A stretch of DNA of 64,000 nt from Phycisphaera sp. (GTDB taxonomy: Bacteria; Planctomycetota; Phycisphaerae; Phycisphaerales; SM1A02). The stretch spans positions 124,001 through 188,000 of the forward strand of contig WGMP01000004.1 of the NCBI GenBank assembly GCA_016124975.1, in the 5' to 3' direction. The notes below the pieces were generated by a model. The model was given only the letters and a program-made list of their open reading frames with translations. It ran no database searches and was not told where the DNA came from. Shown piece after piece: positions 50,153 to 62,507 of this stretch (positions within the stretch are counted from its first letter, which is position 1; the number at the start of each line of letters is the position of its first letter). The translations under genes and the position numbers were made by a program.

Positions 50153-50155
50153 CAG

Positions 50156-50308
50156 TCAAGGCGCAGCTGCATTCAAGGCGCAGCTGCATTCAAGGCGCAG
50201 CTGCATTCAAGGCGCAGCTGCATTCAAGGTGCAGCGGCAGTCAAGGTGCAGCGGCAGTCAAGGTGCAGAGGCAGTCAAGGTGCAGAGGCAGTCAAGGTGC
50301 AGAGGCAG
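50156..50308. repeat. 17-bp tandem repeat, nine copies, between trpA and lexA
   Basis: Nine contiguous 17-bp units starting 3 bp after the trpA stop codon: four TCAAGGCGCAGCTGCAT, two TCAAGGTGCAGCGGCAG, three TCAAGGTGCAGAGGCAG. Units within a subtype are identical, which suggests stepwise expansion. The first subtype contains the palindrome GCAGCTGC. It fills the gap between two convergent genes. Confidence 0.95.
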
Positions 50309-50315
50309 CTCAGCC

Positions 50316-51032
50316 TCAGTAGCGCCGCAGCACGCCGATGACGACGCCCTGGATCGTGCAGTCGTCCACGATGATCGGCGCGAAGTCGGGGTTCGCGGGC
50401 TGCAGTCGGATTCGGCCGCCCTTCTCGCGATAGAAGGTCTTCAGCGTGGTCTCTCCGTTCGGAAGCAGCGCGACCACCCGCTCACCGTTGCGTGCGGTGG
50501 AGCGCTGGTCCACAAGCACATAGTCTCCGTCGAGGATTCCCTCGTCCCGCATCGACATGCCGTCGACCTGCAGCGCGAAGGTCGTTCCCGCGTGCACCTT
50601 GCCTGACCCGAAAATCTTGCCTGACCCGAAAATCTTGCCTGATCCGAAGGTCTTGCGTGGCCCGAACAGCTCCTCGAGGGCGATCGTGTCGCTCTGCTCA
50701 AACTTCTCGATCGGATGCCCTGCGGCCACCTTGCCCACCAGCGGGAAGGTAAGCCCATCTGCGCCCCGGTCCGCCGAGTGCAGCTGCCGCACGGGGACCT
50801 CGTCGGGCTCGTCGGGGAGGACGACCTCAGGCGAGACCGTTAAAGAGCGTGCCTTGTTCGGGTCGCGGTGCAGCGCACCCTTCTCGATCAGTGCCTCGAC
50901 GTGCTCGAAGACCGTGACCTTGCTGACGCGCAGCGCGTCTGCGATCTCCTGCATGGTCGGCGAGTACCCGAGCCTGCGGCGCGTGTCGTGGACGATCCTG
51001 AGCACATTCAGCTGCTTCGGCGTGAGATTCAT
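50316..51032 (-). CDS. lexA: LexA repressor with an in-frame repeat insertion
   Basis: SOS repressor of 238 residues. The N-terminal winged helix starts MNLTPKQLNVLRIVHDTRRR with recognition helix ALRVSKVTVFEHVEAL. The self-cleavage site is Ala104-Gly105 in VGKVAAGHP; the catalytic pair is Ser160 in DGMSMRDEGILDGD and Lys198 in GETTLKTFYRE. Between the cleavage site and Ser160 lies an inserted stretch of repeated GSGKIF (about 126-145), encoded by an 18-bp tandem repeat, which lengthens the protein over the usual 200-220. The start at 51032 matches the family. The ATG is overlapped by another open frame of the same strand. Confidence 0.94.
   Translation of the reverse strand: MNLTPKQLNVLRIVHDTRRRLGYSPTMQEIADALRVSKVTVFEHVEALIEKGALHRDPNKARSLTVSPEVVLPDEPDEVPVRQLHSADRGADGLTFPLVGKVAAGHPIEKFEQSDTIALEELFGPRKTFGSGKIFGSGKIFGSGKVHAGTTFALQVDGMSMRDEGILDGDYVLVDQRSTARNGERVVALLPNGETTLKTFYREKGGRIRLQPANPDFAPIIVDDCTIQGVVIGVLRRY
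50598..50669 (-). repeat. 18-bp in-frame tandem repeat inside lexA
   Basis: Four 18-bp units (50598-50615, 50616-50633, 50634-50651, 50652-50669). The first two are identical, CTTGCCTGACCCGAAAAT on the plus strand; the third and fourth have diverged. On the coding strand they encode the GSGKIF motif. Confidence 0.9.
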
Positions 51033-53861: not shown

Positions 53862-54030
53862 CTAGGTTCTGTCTGACGGATCCCCGAAGACCAAAGAAGC
53901 GCGCGGCGCCCCCGGATGGCAAGGAGGCGAAACGAAGCTGTATCCGCAGCGATACAGCGAGTTGAAGCCGACGCCGCCAGCCGGGATGCCGCGCGATTCG
54001 ACGTCCGCGGATCCGTCAGACAGAACCTAG
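53862..54030. mobile_element. MITE-like element with 22-bp perfect terminal inverted repeats
   Basis: A 169-bp element. Left end CTAGGTTCTGTCTGACGG (first 18 of 22 bp, 53862-53883) is repeated exactly, inverted, at 54009-54030. If the outermost CTAG on each side is a target duplication, it fits the YTAR target of the IS5 group; CTAG is itself a palindrome, so this is not proof. An internal palindrome pairs 53937-53944 with 53951-53958 (GCTGTATC, GATACAGC). No transposase is encoded. The right end supplies the TAG stop of the neighbouring leftward gene. Confidence 0.82.
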
Positions 54031-55148
54031 GCGTCGCTCCGCGCCGGCACCGTGACGGTGTCAACAGCAGCGGCGTCACTCTCGCTCTTCTCCTCGGCGA
54101 ACGCCTGCACCAGCGCGGGATACTCGCGCTGGTACCACGCCAGCCACTGGTCGCGATCGAAGCCCAACGGCGGCGCAGGCTGGCCAGTCGTCCGCTCGAT
54201 CACCATGGCGAGGCTGCGGTGCACCTCGGTGCGGTAGATCACGACCGCAGACTCCATGATGCGGAGCAAACTGCCTTCGTAGAGGATTCCCGGAATCGGC
54301 TGGAGGGCGCCGCTGCCATCGCCGAGGACAGGCACATATCCCGCGATGTAGGCGGTGCGCTGACCGATGGCGATCCACGCCTCGTCGCCCCGGCCCCCAG
54401 CGGACCGCTCCTCGAACTGCGCGTCGATCAGCGCGGGAATCAGCGCCGCGGCGGTGTGGGCGCTCGCGATCATCGCCGCGCGATTGATGTGGAGCTCGCG
54501 GGATGAGCGAAGGCCAGATTCCACCACGGCGAGCGCCTGCGGCGACAGTTCCTCGGGAAGCAGGTCGCGCGCGAGGAGGGAGACCGCATCGTCACCCTTG
54601 AGGGCGTGGCGGACCAGTTCGGCGTGCCCGAAGGCCTCGTCGCGCGCGAGCGCCGTAAAGAGCGCCTTGCGCACATCGCGTTCACCGTGCACGAGGTTCC
54701 CGCCCATCCCTTCGCCCTCGAGGATGCGCACGGCCGCGCGGAGCTCAAGCGGTGACTCGAGCGATTGGATCGTCTCGAGCGCGGCTCCGCGCTCCGCTGC
54801 GACACCGTGGCGCAGCGCCTCGCCGCGCAGTCTTCGCATCGCGTGCTCATAGACCTCAAGCTCGGCGGCGGCAAGTTTCGCAAAGTCCCTTGGCCCACTC
54901 CTCTCGATGCGGGCGATTCGCTCAAGAAGCTCCTCGGTCCGCTGCGATCCATATCGCGACACGAGCGCCGAACCCGCGGCGCGCTGCGAAACGGATCTCC
55001 CCGTCGCGCTCAGAGCTGCGTCGCCCTACAGCGCCGTCGGTGCAGCGATCGCAACGCCCGTCAAGCACGCAGGTCCGAAGCCGAGGGCGAGGATGGTGGA
55101 TGTCAGAAAGGCGGAGCCGAGTCGTTGGCGCGGGCGAGGGGACTTCAT
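54027..55148 (-). pseudogene. exported alpha-helical protein gene interrupted by an in-frame amber codon
   Basis: One reading frame runs from ATG 55148 to 54027. It begins with a normal signal peptide (MKSPRPRQRLGSAFLTSTIL, then ALGFGPACLTGVAIAA), preceded by GGGAG 7 bp upstream and a TATATT -10-like element (55177-55182). Codon 41 is TAG (55026-55028). The same frame then continues for 332 codons with sound coding features: Ala/Leu/Glu-rich helices (HEAT-like), LLERIARIERSGPRDFAKL, RDLLPEELSPQALAVVESGL, QWLAWYQREYPALVQAFAEE. A GTG at 54962 could start a shorter protein without signal peptide. The final stop codon lies in the MITE right end. It may be a pseudogene, a sequencing error, or an amber read-through; no family recognised. 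Confidence 0.65.
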
Positions 55149-55315
55149 GGTTGTGCTCCCGTTTGATGACAGCCTGAATATACGGGCCACGGGACGCCCG
55201 ATTGAAGGGAAAGTTCAAGGAATCGGGGCGTTGGCAAGCGATGGAGCGCACGATTCGCGAGCCCCCGACGGGCCAGCCCCAGGCCGCGCGCTCGCAATCC
55301 GCCGTGGCCACGGCG

Positions 55316-57790: not shown

Positions 57791-59572
57791 TCAGGGGCAC
57801 GCCCCCCACGCGCTCAGGAGTTCCGCGAGGTCCTGCGCGTTTGTGGTGCCGTCGCCGTTGAGGTCGCCCTTCGGGCCATCCCAGCCGCTGAGGACGGCGG
57901 CGAGGTCTTGGGCATCGACGGCTCCGTCGCCATTGAGGTCCGCGGGGCAATCTGCGCAGAGCGGGGCGAGCGTCTCGACCGTCACCAGCACATCGCCGCC
58001 ACCGAGCGACTTCGGCCCGACGCGGATGAAGTAGGTATCTCCGCAGGCGGCCTTGAAGCCAACGCGGCTTCCGCCAGGGCCGCAGATCGGCGCGTTGTCG
58101 CTGCAGCCGATCGCCGTGAGCCCTCCGCACTCTCCCGAATAGACGGCGAGCACCGTGTCGAACCAGGTGGCACAGGTCGTGATCTCGACGAATCCGCTGC
58201 GATCGCTCTCCCAGCGGAGCCACACATCGCGGGCAAACGCCGCACCGCCGCACGCGGGGTCGGCCGCAGGAAGCTCGAGCGTGGAGCGCAGCGTGTTCAC
58301 GATCGCGCCGTCGCCGACGAGAACCGCGGCCGCCGCACAGGTGTCGTTCGCGGGCGGCCCTCCGAGGCAACGGTCACCTGCGAGGACGACGCAACCCGAG
58401 TCCCATGCGGAATCGCAGCAGAAGGGGTCAACCGCGCACACCTCGCCGCAGCAGGTGCCGTCGGAGCATCCAGCGGACTTGGCGGGTGCGAAGCAGCTGT
58501 TCCCTGACTGGCTGCACGGATCGGCGCAGCCATCGTCGACGACAACCTTCAGGTTGTAGCGGTCGCCGATGCTGCAGACTGGTGCGTTCCCGCCGAAGGA
58601 GGGGAAGGTTCCGCCCGCGACGACCACGCGGTACAGCCCAGGCGCGAGGCACGCGGAGGGCGAAGCCGCATCCACGCAGAGCTCGCTGCCGACCGTGAGG
58701 AGCGCAGCAGACATGGGGGTGCAGGCGGATTCGGGCAGGAGTGCCGCCCACGCCTTCGTGGCGGATGCGAACTCGACCGTCACCCGCGACACGCCGTCCC
58801 CGTCGCCATCGGGCACGGTGATCAGGTAGGCATCGACATCGTTCGGGAAGGTGTTGCCTTGGATGGTGCCGATCGATCCACGGACCTGTCGGTTCGGCAG
58901 CAGCGCCTCTGGTGCTCCGCCCGGTCCCGCATAGCAGGGATCGTTCTGACGGACATCGCAGGGCTCGAGCTCGGGCACCGAATCGGGGTCGGGGGTCGGC
59001 TCGCAGCCTGTGATGCAGATGTCCTCCGCGATGATCACGCAGATCTGGTCCCACGACTGCGAGCAGCATGTCGGGTCGACGGCGCAGACGGCATTGCAGC
59101 AGGTCGTGTCGCTGCATGCGCCGTTCGGATTCGTCTGGAAGCATGAGCCTGTGCCGGCTCCGCCACAGGTGCCCGGGTTTCCAGGGCAGGCGAAACCCGC
59201 GAGGGCTGCGCAACTCGCGTCCCACGAGGTCGAGCAGCAGAAGGGGTCGAACGCGCACACAGCCACCGAGCACGATGCGCTGTCGCAGTTCGGATTCGAG
59301 TGCGGGTTGAAGCAGGAACCGCTGGCGGCGGCGCCGGGATAGCCAGCACACGACTCGTTTGCGATGATCACGCAGCCCTGGTCCCAGCCGCCCGCTCCGC
59401 AGCAGGTCGGGTCGATCTGACAGACGAGCGTGCAGCACGCCGCGCCATCGCAGCCTGGCGTCGGGTGGACGACCAGGCAGGACGCCCCTGTGCCGCAGAT
59501 CTGCGCGGACGCCGCGTCGAGGCCAAGCAGGTTCAGGAACGGGATGGCGACGAGGGCGAGCGTGGAGCGCAT
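57791..59572 (-). CDS. secreted Cys-rich repeat protein with C-terminal dockerin-like motif
   Basis: A 593-residue exported protein. The signal peptide (MRSTLALVAIPFLNLLGLD, cut near AASAQ) is followed by three Cys-rich units of about 40-45 residues (CDGAACCTLVCQIDPTCC, CDSASCSVAVCAFDPFCC, CSDTTCCNAVCAVDPTCC) each ending in a WDxxC motif, a beta-rich region (about 205-335, like pre-peptidase C-terminal domains), a fourth unit (CSDGTCCGEVCAVDPFCC), a second beta domain and a C-terminal pair DLNGDGAVDAQDLAAVLSGW, DLNGDGTTNAQDLAELLSAW. The last motif is a calcium-loop pair seen at the ends of many secreted Phycisphaerae proteins, perhaps a sorting or anchoring signal. An ATG at 59605 is also in frame. 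The function is unknown; a surface or matrix role is likely. Confidence 0.82.
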   Translation of the reverse strand: MRSTLALVAIPFLNLLGLDAASAQICGTGASCLVVHPTPGCDGAACCTLVCQIDPTCCGAGGWDQGCVIIANESCAGYPGAAASGSCFNPHSNPNCDSASCSVAVCAFDPFCCSTSWDASCAALAGFACPGNPGTCGGAGTGSCFQTNPNGACSDTTCCNAVCAVDPTCCSQSWDQICVIIAEDICITGCEPTPDPDSVPELEPCDVRQNDPCYAGPGGAPEALLPNRQVRGSIGTIQGNTFPNDVDAYLITVPDGDGDGVSRVTVEFASATKAWAALLPESACTPMSAALLTVGSELCVDAASPSACLAPGLYRVVVAGGTFPSFGGNAPVCSIGDRYNLKVVVDDGCADPCSQSGNSCFAPAKSAGCSDGTCCGEVCAVDPFCCDSAWDSGCVVLAGDRCLGGPPANDTCAAAAVLVGDGAIVNTLRSTLELPAADPACGGAAFARDVWLRWESDRSGFVEITTCATWFDTVLAVYSGECGGLTAIGCSDNAPICGPGGSRVGFKAACGDTYFIRVGPKSLGGGDVLVTVETLAPLCADCPADLNGDGAVDAQDLAAVLSGWDGPKGDLNGDGTTNAQDLAELLSAWGACP

Positions 59573-59764
59573 GTGGCGATGCAAACGAGGCGAGAGAACG
59601 TCCATTGCGGCAGCGAAGATACGCGGGAGGGGATTCCGAGACGAGAGAAACCGTGTGGATTCGGGTGAGGCGACCGCTGGCCGCGGCGTGGCGCGGCCTC
59701 TCGGACGCTCGACTTCCGCGGTAGCCCGTCCCTCCCGCGGAGAGCTCGTCCGTGCACAAAGAGA

Positions 59765-59794
59765 AGGGCCCCCGGTCCGAAGACCGGGGGCCCT
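59765..59794 (-). terminator. strong terminator hairpin with UUCG loop
   Basis: A perfect 13-bp stem (59765-59777 with 59782-59794). On the minus strand the loop is TTCG closed by C-G, the stable cUUCGg tetraloop, followed by TTCTCTTTG. It ends transcription of the 59841-62507 gene. Confidence 0.85.
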
Positions 59795-59840
59795 GTTGCT
59801 GTCATGCGCTGTCAGGTCCTGGCGCGAGCGCCTTGCCTGA

Positions 59841-62507
59841 TCAGTTGCAGGCGCCCCAGCCGTTCAGCAGGGCCGCGAGGTCCTGCGAATCGGTGGTGCC
59901 GTCGCCGTTGAGATCGGCGCCAGCGGTGCCCCACGCGTTGAGGAGCGTGGCGAGATCCTGCGAGCTGACCTCGTTGTCACCGTTGAGGTCACCCGGGCAC
60001 GACGGCGCGCAGCTGCCGGCCTGGGAGATCGTCATGGTGCCCGAGCCGAAGCCCGCGGGCGACCAGGCGCCGACGGCGATCACATAGGTCGTGCCGCAGG
60101 TACCGGGGAAGGTGACCTGAGACTGGAGACCGCAGGAATCGTCGTTGCACGCGACCTGAGCGCCACCGCAGCTGCCCTCGAACACGGCGAGAGCCGTGTC
60201 GTACGACGCGCCGCAGAGCGAGATCGTGATGTCCTGATCACCGACGGCGGTGTAGGTGTACCAGATCTCGTTGTCGATGCTGACGCAGGCGTTGGTGAGG
60301 CCAGTCGCGAGGAAGTTCGCGAACGGAGTTCCGCCGAGGCCAACCGCGATCGCGTTCGCGCACTCGTCGTTCGCCGGGGGCTCCGGCGGGCCGTCCGAGG
60401 TCGCGATCGTGAGCGTGCCGCTTCCGGGGAGCGTGGCGGCCGCATAGCCACCGAGCGCCACGAAGTAGGTCACGCCGCCCTCGAGATCAACAGCGTCGAT
60501 GCGGCTGGTGAAGCCAGCGCAGCCCGTGCCGTCGTCGTTGCAGGCGAGGACGCCAGCGAACGCATCGCCGCACACATTGAGGATCGCGATCTTCGTGTCG
60601 AAGTTCGCGGTGCCGCAGGTCGAGAACGAGTAGGTGCCCGTCTCGGTGGGGGTGAAGCTGTAGAAGTTGGTGTTGTAGATCAGATCGGTGAACTGCATGT
60701 CGCAGATGCCCGTCAGATCGAGGATGGTGCCCGTACCGCCGTTGGCGAACGCGTTGTCGCCAAGGACGACCACGGTCGGAGCGTCGCAGGTGCTGCCACC
60801 GCCGCCACCGCCGCCGCCGCAAGACTTGCAGCTCACGGCCGCAGCATCGGCGCAGATCTGATCCCACTCGGTCGCACAGCAGAACGGATCCGCAGTGCAG
60901 ATCAGGTCGCAGCACTCTGCATCGCTGCAGTACGGGGTGCCGTTCGCAACGCAGCAGTCGCCAGCCTCAGGGCTGCCGCACACGATCGCGGTGCACGGCA
61001 CACCCGTGACCTCGAGCGTGTACTCGTTGCCGACCGAGAGACCGCACGGAGAGCCCTCGAAGGAGCTGGGGAGCGCCACGATGAAGTGGTCACCCGCCGG
61101 GAGGCAGACCGACACGGTGCCGGGGCACTCGCCGACGGTCGGGCCGCCGACGATGCCATTGCAGCCGAGGTCAACCGCCGCTGCAAACGCGGCGATGTTC
61201 GAGCGGATCGTCAGGGTGACCTCGGTGTCCTCGGTGAGGGTCAGGAGGTACCAGTCGGTGTCGCGCGTGCCGCCATCAGCCCAGAAGGTGCCCTGGACGA
61301 TGTCGCCGAGCGCGATTGGCTCCGTGGGGAGCGTCGGCTGGGTGTTGCATCCGCCGTTGAGGTCTTCACCACAGAGCTCAGCCTCGAAGGCGGTCGCCGT
61401 GCCGAGATCGCAGGGCACGAAGCTCGCGATCTCGATCTGGCCGAAGCCCTGGTCGGCGGCGCTGAAGCCACCGACGACGATGTAGTACTCGACGCCACCC
61501 TCGAGCTCCACGAAGGGAATCTCGCTGGTGAAGTTGGCGCAACCCGCGCCGTCGTCGTTGCACGCGAGCACGCCGTCCGCGGGCGTGCAGCCCTCGAAGA
61601 CGGCCAGACGCGTGTCGAAGCCCGCGAGATTGCAGGTCGAGATCGAATAGACGTCGCTCTTCGGAGGCGTGAAGCTGTAGAAGACGGCGTTGTAGATCAG
61701 GTCATCGCCGAACGCACCCGGGTCGCAGAAGCCCGTGAGGTCGACCGGCGTGAACGCGGTCGAGGTGTCGAAGTCGTTGAGGCCGACGACCAGGTCGGTC
61801 GCCTCTTCGCATCCGCCGCCGCCACCGCCACCGAGGAAGGTGATGTTGAAGCTGCCCGAACCAACGGGGGTGGCCGCGGCGTAACCGCCGAGGGCGATCT
61901 TGTAGGTGACGCCGCCGATCAGCTCGACCGCAGGAATCTGGCTGGTGAAGCCGGTGCAGGTTGCGCCGTCATCGTTGCACGCGAGAACGCCCTCGAAGGG
62001 GTCGCAGCCGTTCATCACGGCGATCTTCGTGTCGAAGTCGGCCGTGCTGCAGGTCGACATGCTGTAGAAGCCGTCTTCCGCTGGCGTGAAGAGGTAGTAG
62101 TTCGTGTTGTAGAACTGGGGCGTGAACTGCATCGTGCAGGCGCCAGTCATGTCGATGATGACGCCGGTTGCGCCGTTGGCGAACGTGTTGTCGCCGAGGA
62201 CGAACTCGCCGGGCTTGTCGCAGGTGGAGCCGTCTCCGCCACCGCCACCGCCGCCGCCGCCACCGCCGCCGCACACGCCGCAGATCGCGACGGCCGCGTT
62301 GGCGCAGATCTGATCCCACTGCGTGTTGCAGCAGAAGGCGTCGGCCGCGCACACGGCCTCGCAGCACTCGGCGTCAGAGCAGCCGGGCGTGCCGTTTGCA
62401 ATGCAGCAATCACCCGCAGCCGGGTCGCCGCACTGCGCCCACGCGGCGCTCGCGACGAACGTCGCGGACAGCGCGGTACAGATGAAGGTCCAGTTCTTCG
62501 ATCGCAT
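59841..62507 (-). CDS. large secreted Cys-rich and beta-domain protein with dockerin-like C-terminus
   Basis: An 888-residue exported protein. After a signal peptide (about 1-24, cut near AWAQ) come a Cys-rich unit (CSDAECCEAVCAADAFCC, WDQIC), a poly-Gly linker (12 Gly), and a beta domain (FYSMSTCSTADFDTKIAVMN, YKIALGGYAAATPVGSGSFN). A second poly-Gly linker, a second beta domain and a distinct third beta domain follow. Then the first module repeats: CSDAECCDLICTADPFCC, poly-Gly, and a similar beta domain (FYSFTPTETGTYSFSTCGTA). A last beta domain precedes the C-terminal pair DLNGDNEVSSQDLATLLNAW, DLNGDGTTDSQDLAALLNGW. The domain style is that of adhesin or matrix proteins. AAGGAG lies 8 bp before the ATG. 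Confidence 0.83.
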   Translation of the reverse strand: MRSKNWTFICTALSATFVASAAWAQCGDPAAGDCCIANGTPGCSDAECCEAVCAADAFCCNTQWDQICANAAVAICGVCGGGGGGGGGGGGDGSTCDKPGEFVLGDNTFANGATGVIIDMTGACTMQFTPQFYNTNYYLFTPAEDGFYSMSTCSTADFDTKIAVMNGCDPFEGVLACNDDGATCTGFTSQIPAVELIGGVTYKIALGGYAAATPVGSGSFNITFLGGGGGGGCEEATDLVVGLNDFDTSTAFTPVDLTGFCDPGAFGDDLIYNAVFYSFTPPKSDVYSISTCNLAGFDTRLAVFEGCTPADGVLACNDDGAGCANFTSEIPFVELEGGVEYYIVVGGFSAADQGFGQIEIASFVPCDLGTATAFEAELCGEDLNGGCNTQPTLPTEPIALGDIVQGTFWADGGTRDTDWYLLTLTEDTEVTLTIRSNIAAFAAAVDLGCNGIVGGPTVGECPGTVSVCLPAGDHFIVALPSSFEGSPCGLSVGNEYTLEVTGVPCTAIVCGSPEAGDCCVANGTPYCSDAECCDLICTADPFCCATEWDQICADAAAVSCKSCGGGGGGGGSTCDAPTVVVLGDNAFANGGTGTILDLTGICDMQFTDLIYNTNFYSFTPTETGTYSFSTCGTANFDTKIAILNVCGDAFAGVLACNDDGTGCAGFTSRIDAVDLEGGVTYFVALGGYAAATLPGSGTLTIATSDGPPEPPANDECANAIAVGLGGTPFANFLATGLTNACVSIDNEIWYTYTAVGDQDITISLCGASYDTALAVFEGSCGGAQVACNDDSCGLQSQVTFPGTCGTTYVIAVGAWSPAGFGSGTMTISQAGSCAPSCPGDLNGDNEVSSQDLATLLNAWGTAGADLNGDGTTDSQDLAALLNGWGACN

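Follow-up and report, generated by a model that had tools for sequence, protein, structure and literature searches.

A conserved gene of Phycisphaera sp. is interrupted by an in-frame amber codon directly behind a leader that resembles a signal peptide, and this is probably a recent nonsense mutation in the gene of a conserved, probably exported HEAT-like protein. The window, that is, the whole stretch of DNA analysed, comprises 64,000 nucleotides, and the interrupted frame is read on its minus strand from 55148 down to 54027 (Table 1). As claimed in the preliminary description, a promoter-like element, a Shine-Dalgarno sequence, a signal-peptide-like leader and a downstream domain lie in one frame that is broken by TAG, and translation confirms that the frame remains open for 332 further codons. 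The TAG at codon 41 is the sole abnormal feature of the gene, and the terminal TAG (54029-54027) is native.

Table 1. Features of the interrupted gene and its surroundings (positions in the window)
Feature	Position	Strand	Basis or remark
-10-like element TATATTC	55176-55182	-	upstream of start; sole copy in window, 0.06 expected
Shine-Dalgarno-like GGGAG	55156-55160	-	7 nt before ATG; direct sequence reading
Start codon ATG	55148-55146	-	translation
40-codon leader, signal-peptide-like	55029-55148	-	translation
In-frame TAG (codon 41)	55026-55028	-	inside poorly conserved linker; absent from 15/15 same-genus orthologues
332 open codons, predicted HEAT-like alpha-solenoid with conserved C-terminal part	54030-55025	-	alignment, profiles, model
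GTG, first start-type codon past the TAG	54960-54962	-	candidate restart site; product of 311 aa lacking the signal peptide
CTAG, last base of last sense codon plus native TAG stop	54027-54030	-	doubles as a copy of the target-site duplication
MITE body, inverted repeats, GTTCTGTCTGACGGATCC ends	53866-54026		inverted repeat 96% over 25 nt
CTAG, other copy of the target-site duplication	53862-53865		sequence read
Convergent neighbour, 163 aa	53363-53854	+	undamaged; its TGA stop lies 7 nt short of the MITE duplication

Both strands of this DNA are rich in long, overlapping open frames, so an open frame alone is weak evidence for a gene. An orthologue was found in each of the 15 other same-genus genomes searched (the comparison collections hold one genome per species), and the 44-56% identity over the matched part indicates that the interrupted frame is a real gene. 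All 15 orthologues are uninterrupted, none containing an internal stop. A contig-level homologue search returned 13 loci (L051-L063), which largely repeat the places of the genus loci (L022-L036). In a sample of the class, 63 of 298 genomes contained a match at E <= 0.001, a count that includes the genome of the window and two genus members already counted; many of the weak matches span just a short stretch of larger proteins. Internal stops in distant homologues were also considered, and were rejected for the three flagged matches inspected out of six, since the stops in G047 (TAG), G111 (TGA) and G034 (TAG) are all terminal; the other flagged matches are G256, G303 and G121.

The neighbours of the gene are kept wherever the orthologue loci reach far enough. 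The convergent neighbour, for which the Pfam search returned no family, was matched beside 12 of the 15 orthologues, and at the three loci without it (L030, L031 and L032) the DNA ends within 100 bases of the orthologue. A SPOR gene, named from its Pfam match, was matched in 14 of the same 15 loci, and a gene that we take to be aminotransferase-like in 11. Nine of the 13 longer loci L051-L063 contained a further gene, presumably AMP-ligase-like.

The leader combines a basic start, a hydrophobic core and the motif AIAAP near its end (AIAAPTAL), and the protein is probably exported, as judged from this translation and by eye. Most orthologues likewise open with a hydrophobic stretch when inspected by eye. 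In the 80 nt that precede the chosen start, TATATT was found in 12 of the 15 orthologues, TATAGT in two and neither in one; the orthologue starts were picked by eye, which favours signal-peptide-like starts, and L032 was given a GTG start. The heptamer TATATTC occurs twice in the whole 325 kb contig. Because TATATT is kept upstream of most orthologues, and because the window copy has both the promoter-like element and the leader, its upstream ATG is most likely the ancestral start.

An alternative is that translation restarts at the GTG at 54962, which would yield a 311-aa form that is not exported. The frame opened by this GTG retains the conserved domain, which begins further on, and our own gene caller chooses this start, but no Shine-Dalgarno-like motif was seen upstream of it, the promoter-like element, the Shine-Dalgarno sequence and the signal peptide all lie further upstream, and most orthologues have hydrophobic openings, as judged by eye. 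We regard a restart as very improbable.

The 3' end of the frame adjoins a MITE, the extent of which in Table 1 assumes a 4-base duplication; with both CTAG copies included, it spans 53862-54030. The preliminary description placed the 3' stop codon inside this element and named a gene hit at both ends as one option. The stop does belong to the CTAG duplication at the edge of the element, but the protein ends at the same aligned place as its orthologues, and the notion of damage at this end is not upheld. TAG is retained here because a CTAG duplication of two, three or four bases keeps the stop. Comparison with the orthologues thus indicates that the MITE landed on the native stop as an independent, harmless insertion that left the protein unchanged, and 3' truncation by the MITE was rejected.

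Sixteen strong MITE matches, including the window copy, and 33 end matches were found in this genome. Among the matches with exact ends, every free left base (8 of 8) is C, and 14 of 15 distinct right ends have G as their free base, which indicates that copies of the MITE sit between CTAG sequences; ends with other letters occur on C40, C38 and C1. The element has the terminal inverted repeats and the CTAG/YTAR duplication expected of an IS5-type MITE. Seven of the 16 matches are cut at contig edges, each after exactly 141 bases; in some cases a single copy may account for two of these matches. The common length is probably a trace of the k-mer length of the assembly, k = 141 being a common assembler maximum.

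The contig-edge matches bear on another reading of the codon-41 TAG, as an error in the assembly consensus, or a variant from a minority strain, in a metagenome-assembled genome, with the gene intact in most cells. We infer that the genome is a metagenome assembly: its division into 59 contigs and the seven edge matches at exactly 141 bases would fit short-read k-mer assembly of a mixed sample. The gene is, moreover, otherwise undamaged. However, a base without the support of several reads would usually be pruned in such an assembly, and the site lies inside the 325 kb contig, away from its edges. An error or minority variant is in our estimation unlikely, but it is the next most likely reading after a recent nonsense mutation.

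No decay was seen downstream of the TAG, either in conserved columns or in relative rate. Of 51 columns that do not vary among the other 15 sequences, one is changed in the window copy; for the others, each left out in turn, 0-5 of 50-55 such columns are changed. Looser thresholds give 2 of 65 and 5 of 80 changed columns for the window copy (others, 0-11 of 64-70 and 0-14 of 77-83). In a relative-rate comparison with the nearest relative (L022), chi-square ranged from 0.02 to 2.86 over 14 outgroups. The terminal branch of the window copy is longer than that of its sister (0.449 vs 0.389), which counts against a recent nonsense mutation, but the difference is not significant by the relative-rate comparison. 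The nearest relative is about 51-56% identical in this gene, too distant for dN/dS since the stop arose.

The lack of decay fits alike a very young stop, a polymorphic one, an artefact, and a stop that is tolerated while the gene stays in use. Relaxed constraint would be expected only behind an old stop, so its absence argues against an old pseudogene and leaves a recent one unaffected. Because continued use would likewise leave the frame free of decay, the result also weighs against the nonsense mutation that we favour.

The decoding genes of the genome are ordinary. A search with RF00005, which a divergent tRNA could escape, in an assembly 97.59% complete, found 46 tRNA genes, none of them with a CTA, TTA or TCA anticodon; the amber suppressor tRNA that the preliminary description had proposed to look for is thus absent from this set. 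An RF1-like gene with a frame of 439 aa was the best of three matches at 348 bits, and its position below the NCBIfam cut-off of 423 bits is a further point against the nonsense mutation; the one TGA flagged in the match is its own terminal stop. An RF2-like gene is present too, distinguished from the RF1-like gene by its score and by the frameshift site that it carries. The search for PylS returned just a 19-bit match, against a cut-off of 178 bits. TAG terminates 26 of the 243 genes called on the contig with our own codon model, the interrupted gene among them, and five of the 15 orthologues also end with it. It follows from these uses that TAG still means stop.

Ten candidates for further in-frame interruptions emerged when the contig was scanned; four were inspected, including both with TAG. 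All four are pairs of separate genes, the members of which we distinguished by what we take to be their protein types, and the search for further TAG-interrupted genes, also proposed earlier, was negative to this extent. The scan is based on codon usage and was run on a single contig (325 kb out of 3.61 Mb). It catches roughly 6 in 10 interruptions: when stops were simulated at random codons in genes of at least 150 aa, 2639 of 4340 were flagged, and at codon 41, 121 of 217. The interrupted gene itself is not flagged, as its leader and the next 30 codons score low.

These results were used to assess whether the whole genome reads UAG as an amino acid, through an alternative code or pyrrolysine. 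Apart from the open frame itself, the sub-cut-off score of the RF1-like match is what would favour such a code. Against it stand the presence of that RF1-like gene, the lack of CTA anticodons and of PylS in the searches, the regular use of TAG as a terminator, and the four inspected pairs that proved to be separate genes. Genome-wide amber recoding was rejected on these grounds, and we consider it extremely improbable.

Read-through confined to this gene, whether tolerated or regulatory, would require that near-cognate tRNAs read UAG and yield some full-length exported protein, with selection keeping the frame. A clean downstream part, constrained about as in the intact relatives, would be expected in this case, and the excerpted text of Belinky et al. 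2021 (PMC7918605) proposes widespread read-through in prokaryotes, with a TAG example in Paenibacillus; the interpretation remains a proposal there. On the other hand, no orthologue shares the TAG, an RF1-like gene is present, no suppressor tRNA was seen, and the TAG sits in a non-conserved linker, which varies in both sequence and length in the orthologue alignment. The 100 nt that follow the TAG form no unusually stable RNA structure (z +1.09; 174 of 200 shuffled sequences were at least as stable) in a fold test that leaves out pseudoknots and other signals, and a strong stem-loop behind the TAG was rejected. The suggestion of stop read-through or recoding in the preliminary description thus found no positive support, and we consider read-through decidedly improbable, although ordinary read-through at a low level may occur.

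A more specific version, in which the UAG behind the signal peptide is a translational valve that halts most ribosomes after the leader, a small, condition-dependent read-through sets the dose of the exported solenoid and selection preserves the domain, has very little probability. Should the TAG prove frequent in the population, with the protein still being produced, the gene would be a lineage-specific case of read-through. A literature search, judged by titles and the start of abstracts, found no paper on stop codon readthrough in planctomycetes.

The product is predicted to be a HEAT-like solenoid. No family exceeded its cut-off in NCBIfam, or in Pfam for the window protein and three orthologues, and the HEAT profile PF13646 reached a sub-cut-off E of 0.055 in one of the four members. 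Three matches were returned by a PDB sequence search (best E 0.23), and none by Foldseek at E <= 0.001. The AlphaFold model, from 16 sequences, has a mean pLDDT of 78.6 and shows 17 helices in a helical solenoid; its residues 207-261, which contain part of the best conserved region, are unreliable. A second structure comparison retrieved alphaRep, CLASP and PP2A scaffolds at Z 7-8, values common for helical repeats, the best match having Z 8.0 and rmsd 7.7 over 169 aligned residues. As a guess, the protein may be a binding scaffold outside the cytoplasm.

A larger protein (L037-L050) was found in 14 of the 15 other members of the genus, with frames of 954-1092 aa in 13 and 474 aa in one. It shares a stretch of 47-58 residues with the most conserved part of the family (window residues 212 to 258-269). 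No match to this stretch was found at that threshold in the genome of the window or in G001.

Elsewhere in the window, a minus-strand ORF that we take to be LexA-like contains an 18-bp in-frame tandem repeat (GSGKIF units, 50598-50666) and is closely followed on its downstream side by a 17/51-bp tandem array (50153-50308). Two large adjoining minus-strand ORFs (604 and 888 aa, 57791-62507) have signal-like starts, cysteine-rich repeats and C-terminal DLNGDG motifs, presumably dockerin-like.

The preferred reading, a recent nonsense mutation, was one of the options named in the preliminary description, and it is the best account of the 5' TAG, the gene being intact in all 15 orthologues with none sharing the TAG. 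A single TAG would have arisen just behind the signal peptide in the lineage or population of this assembly. Translation would begin at the conserved upstream ATG and be ended by RF1 at codon 41, and the exported protein would then be absent or made only in traces, with a presumed loss of its function. A young or polymorphic event would explain why the downstream frame is still clean, and the MITE would have inserted, independently and harmlessly, into the CTAG holding the native stop. The gene offers a worked example in which orthologue C-termini and a target-site duplication reduce two apparently broken ends to one, and illustrates that insertion of an element at a stop codon can be harmless.

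A separate observation concerns the RF2-like gene (L114, L149; G000:C13:25399-26472, minus strand), called prfB from its score and layout, which contains a +1 frameshift site CTT TAA C. The gene was matched in 40 of 41 genomes. Among the 30 RF2-like loci listed, 20 have CTTTAAC and nine have CTTTGAC in the expected frame, and one (L177) has neither (16, 13 and 1 when the first match in any frame is counted instead); the same-genus loci listed, that of the present genome included, have UAA in 13 of 13. An AGGGGG like that of E. coli was not seen by eye before the site. A literature search found no paper on UAA at the prfB frameshift site of planctomycetes. The site differs from the RF2 frameshift site described in an excerpted source (PMC13245932), which has UGA where UAA stands here.

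Further comparisons with known systems can be drawn for the MITE, the protein and the interruption. IS5 target duplications are given as Py-T-A-Pu, most commonly CTAG, in the part of the literature consulted (PMC5493358), and the CTAG target duplication of the window MITE resembles those of IS5-type elements and MITEs. It differs in that inspection of the 33 end matches by eye revealed no pair of ends spaced at IS length, so that membership in this family is a candidate assignment. The protein resembles HEAT and other alpha-helical repeat proteins, such as the artificial alphaRep, the PP2A A subunit and the CLASP TOG domains, in its predicted helical solenoid, but differs from HEAT proteins in lacking a Pfam HEAT model above cut-off. 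For the interruption, the closest parallel is in the excerpted text of Belinky et al. 2021 (PMC7918605), according to which bacterial genes with in-frame stops are widespread and most of the stops are short-lived and SNP-like, lasting about as long as population polymorphisms. Like the cases described there, the present gene combines a single in-frame TAG, conservation and no decay downstream; their large-scale set, in contrast, requires at least two species sharing the stop. The gene is thus one more conserved bacterial gene with an in-frame stop, seen here in a single assembly.
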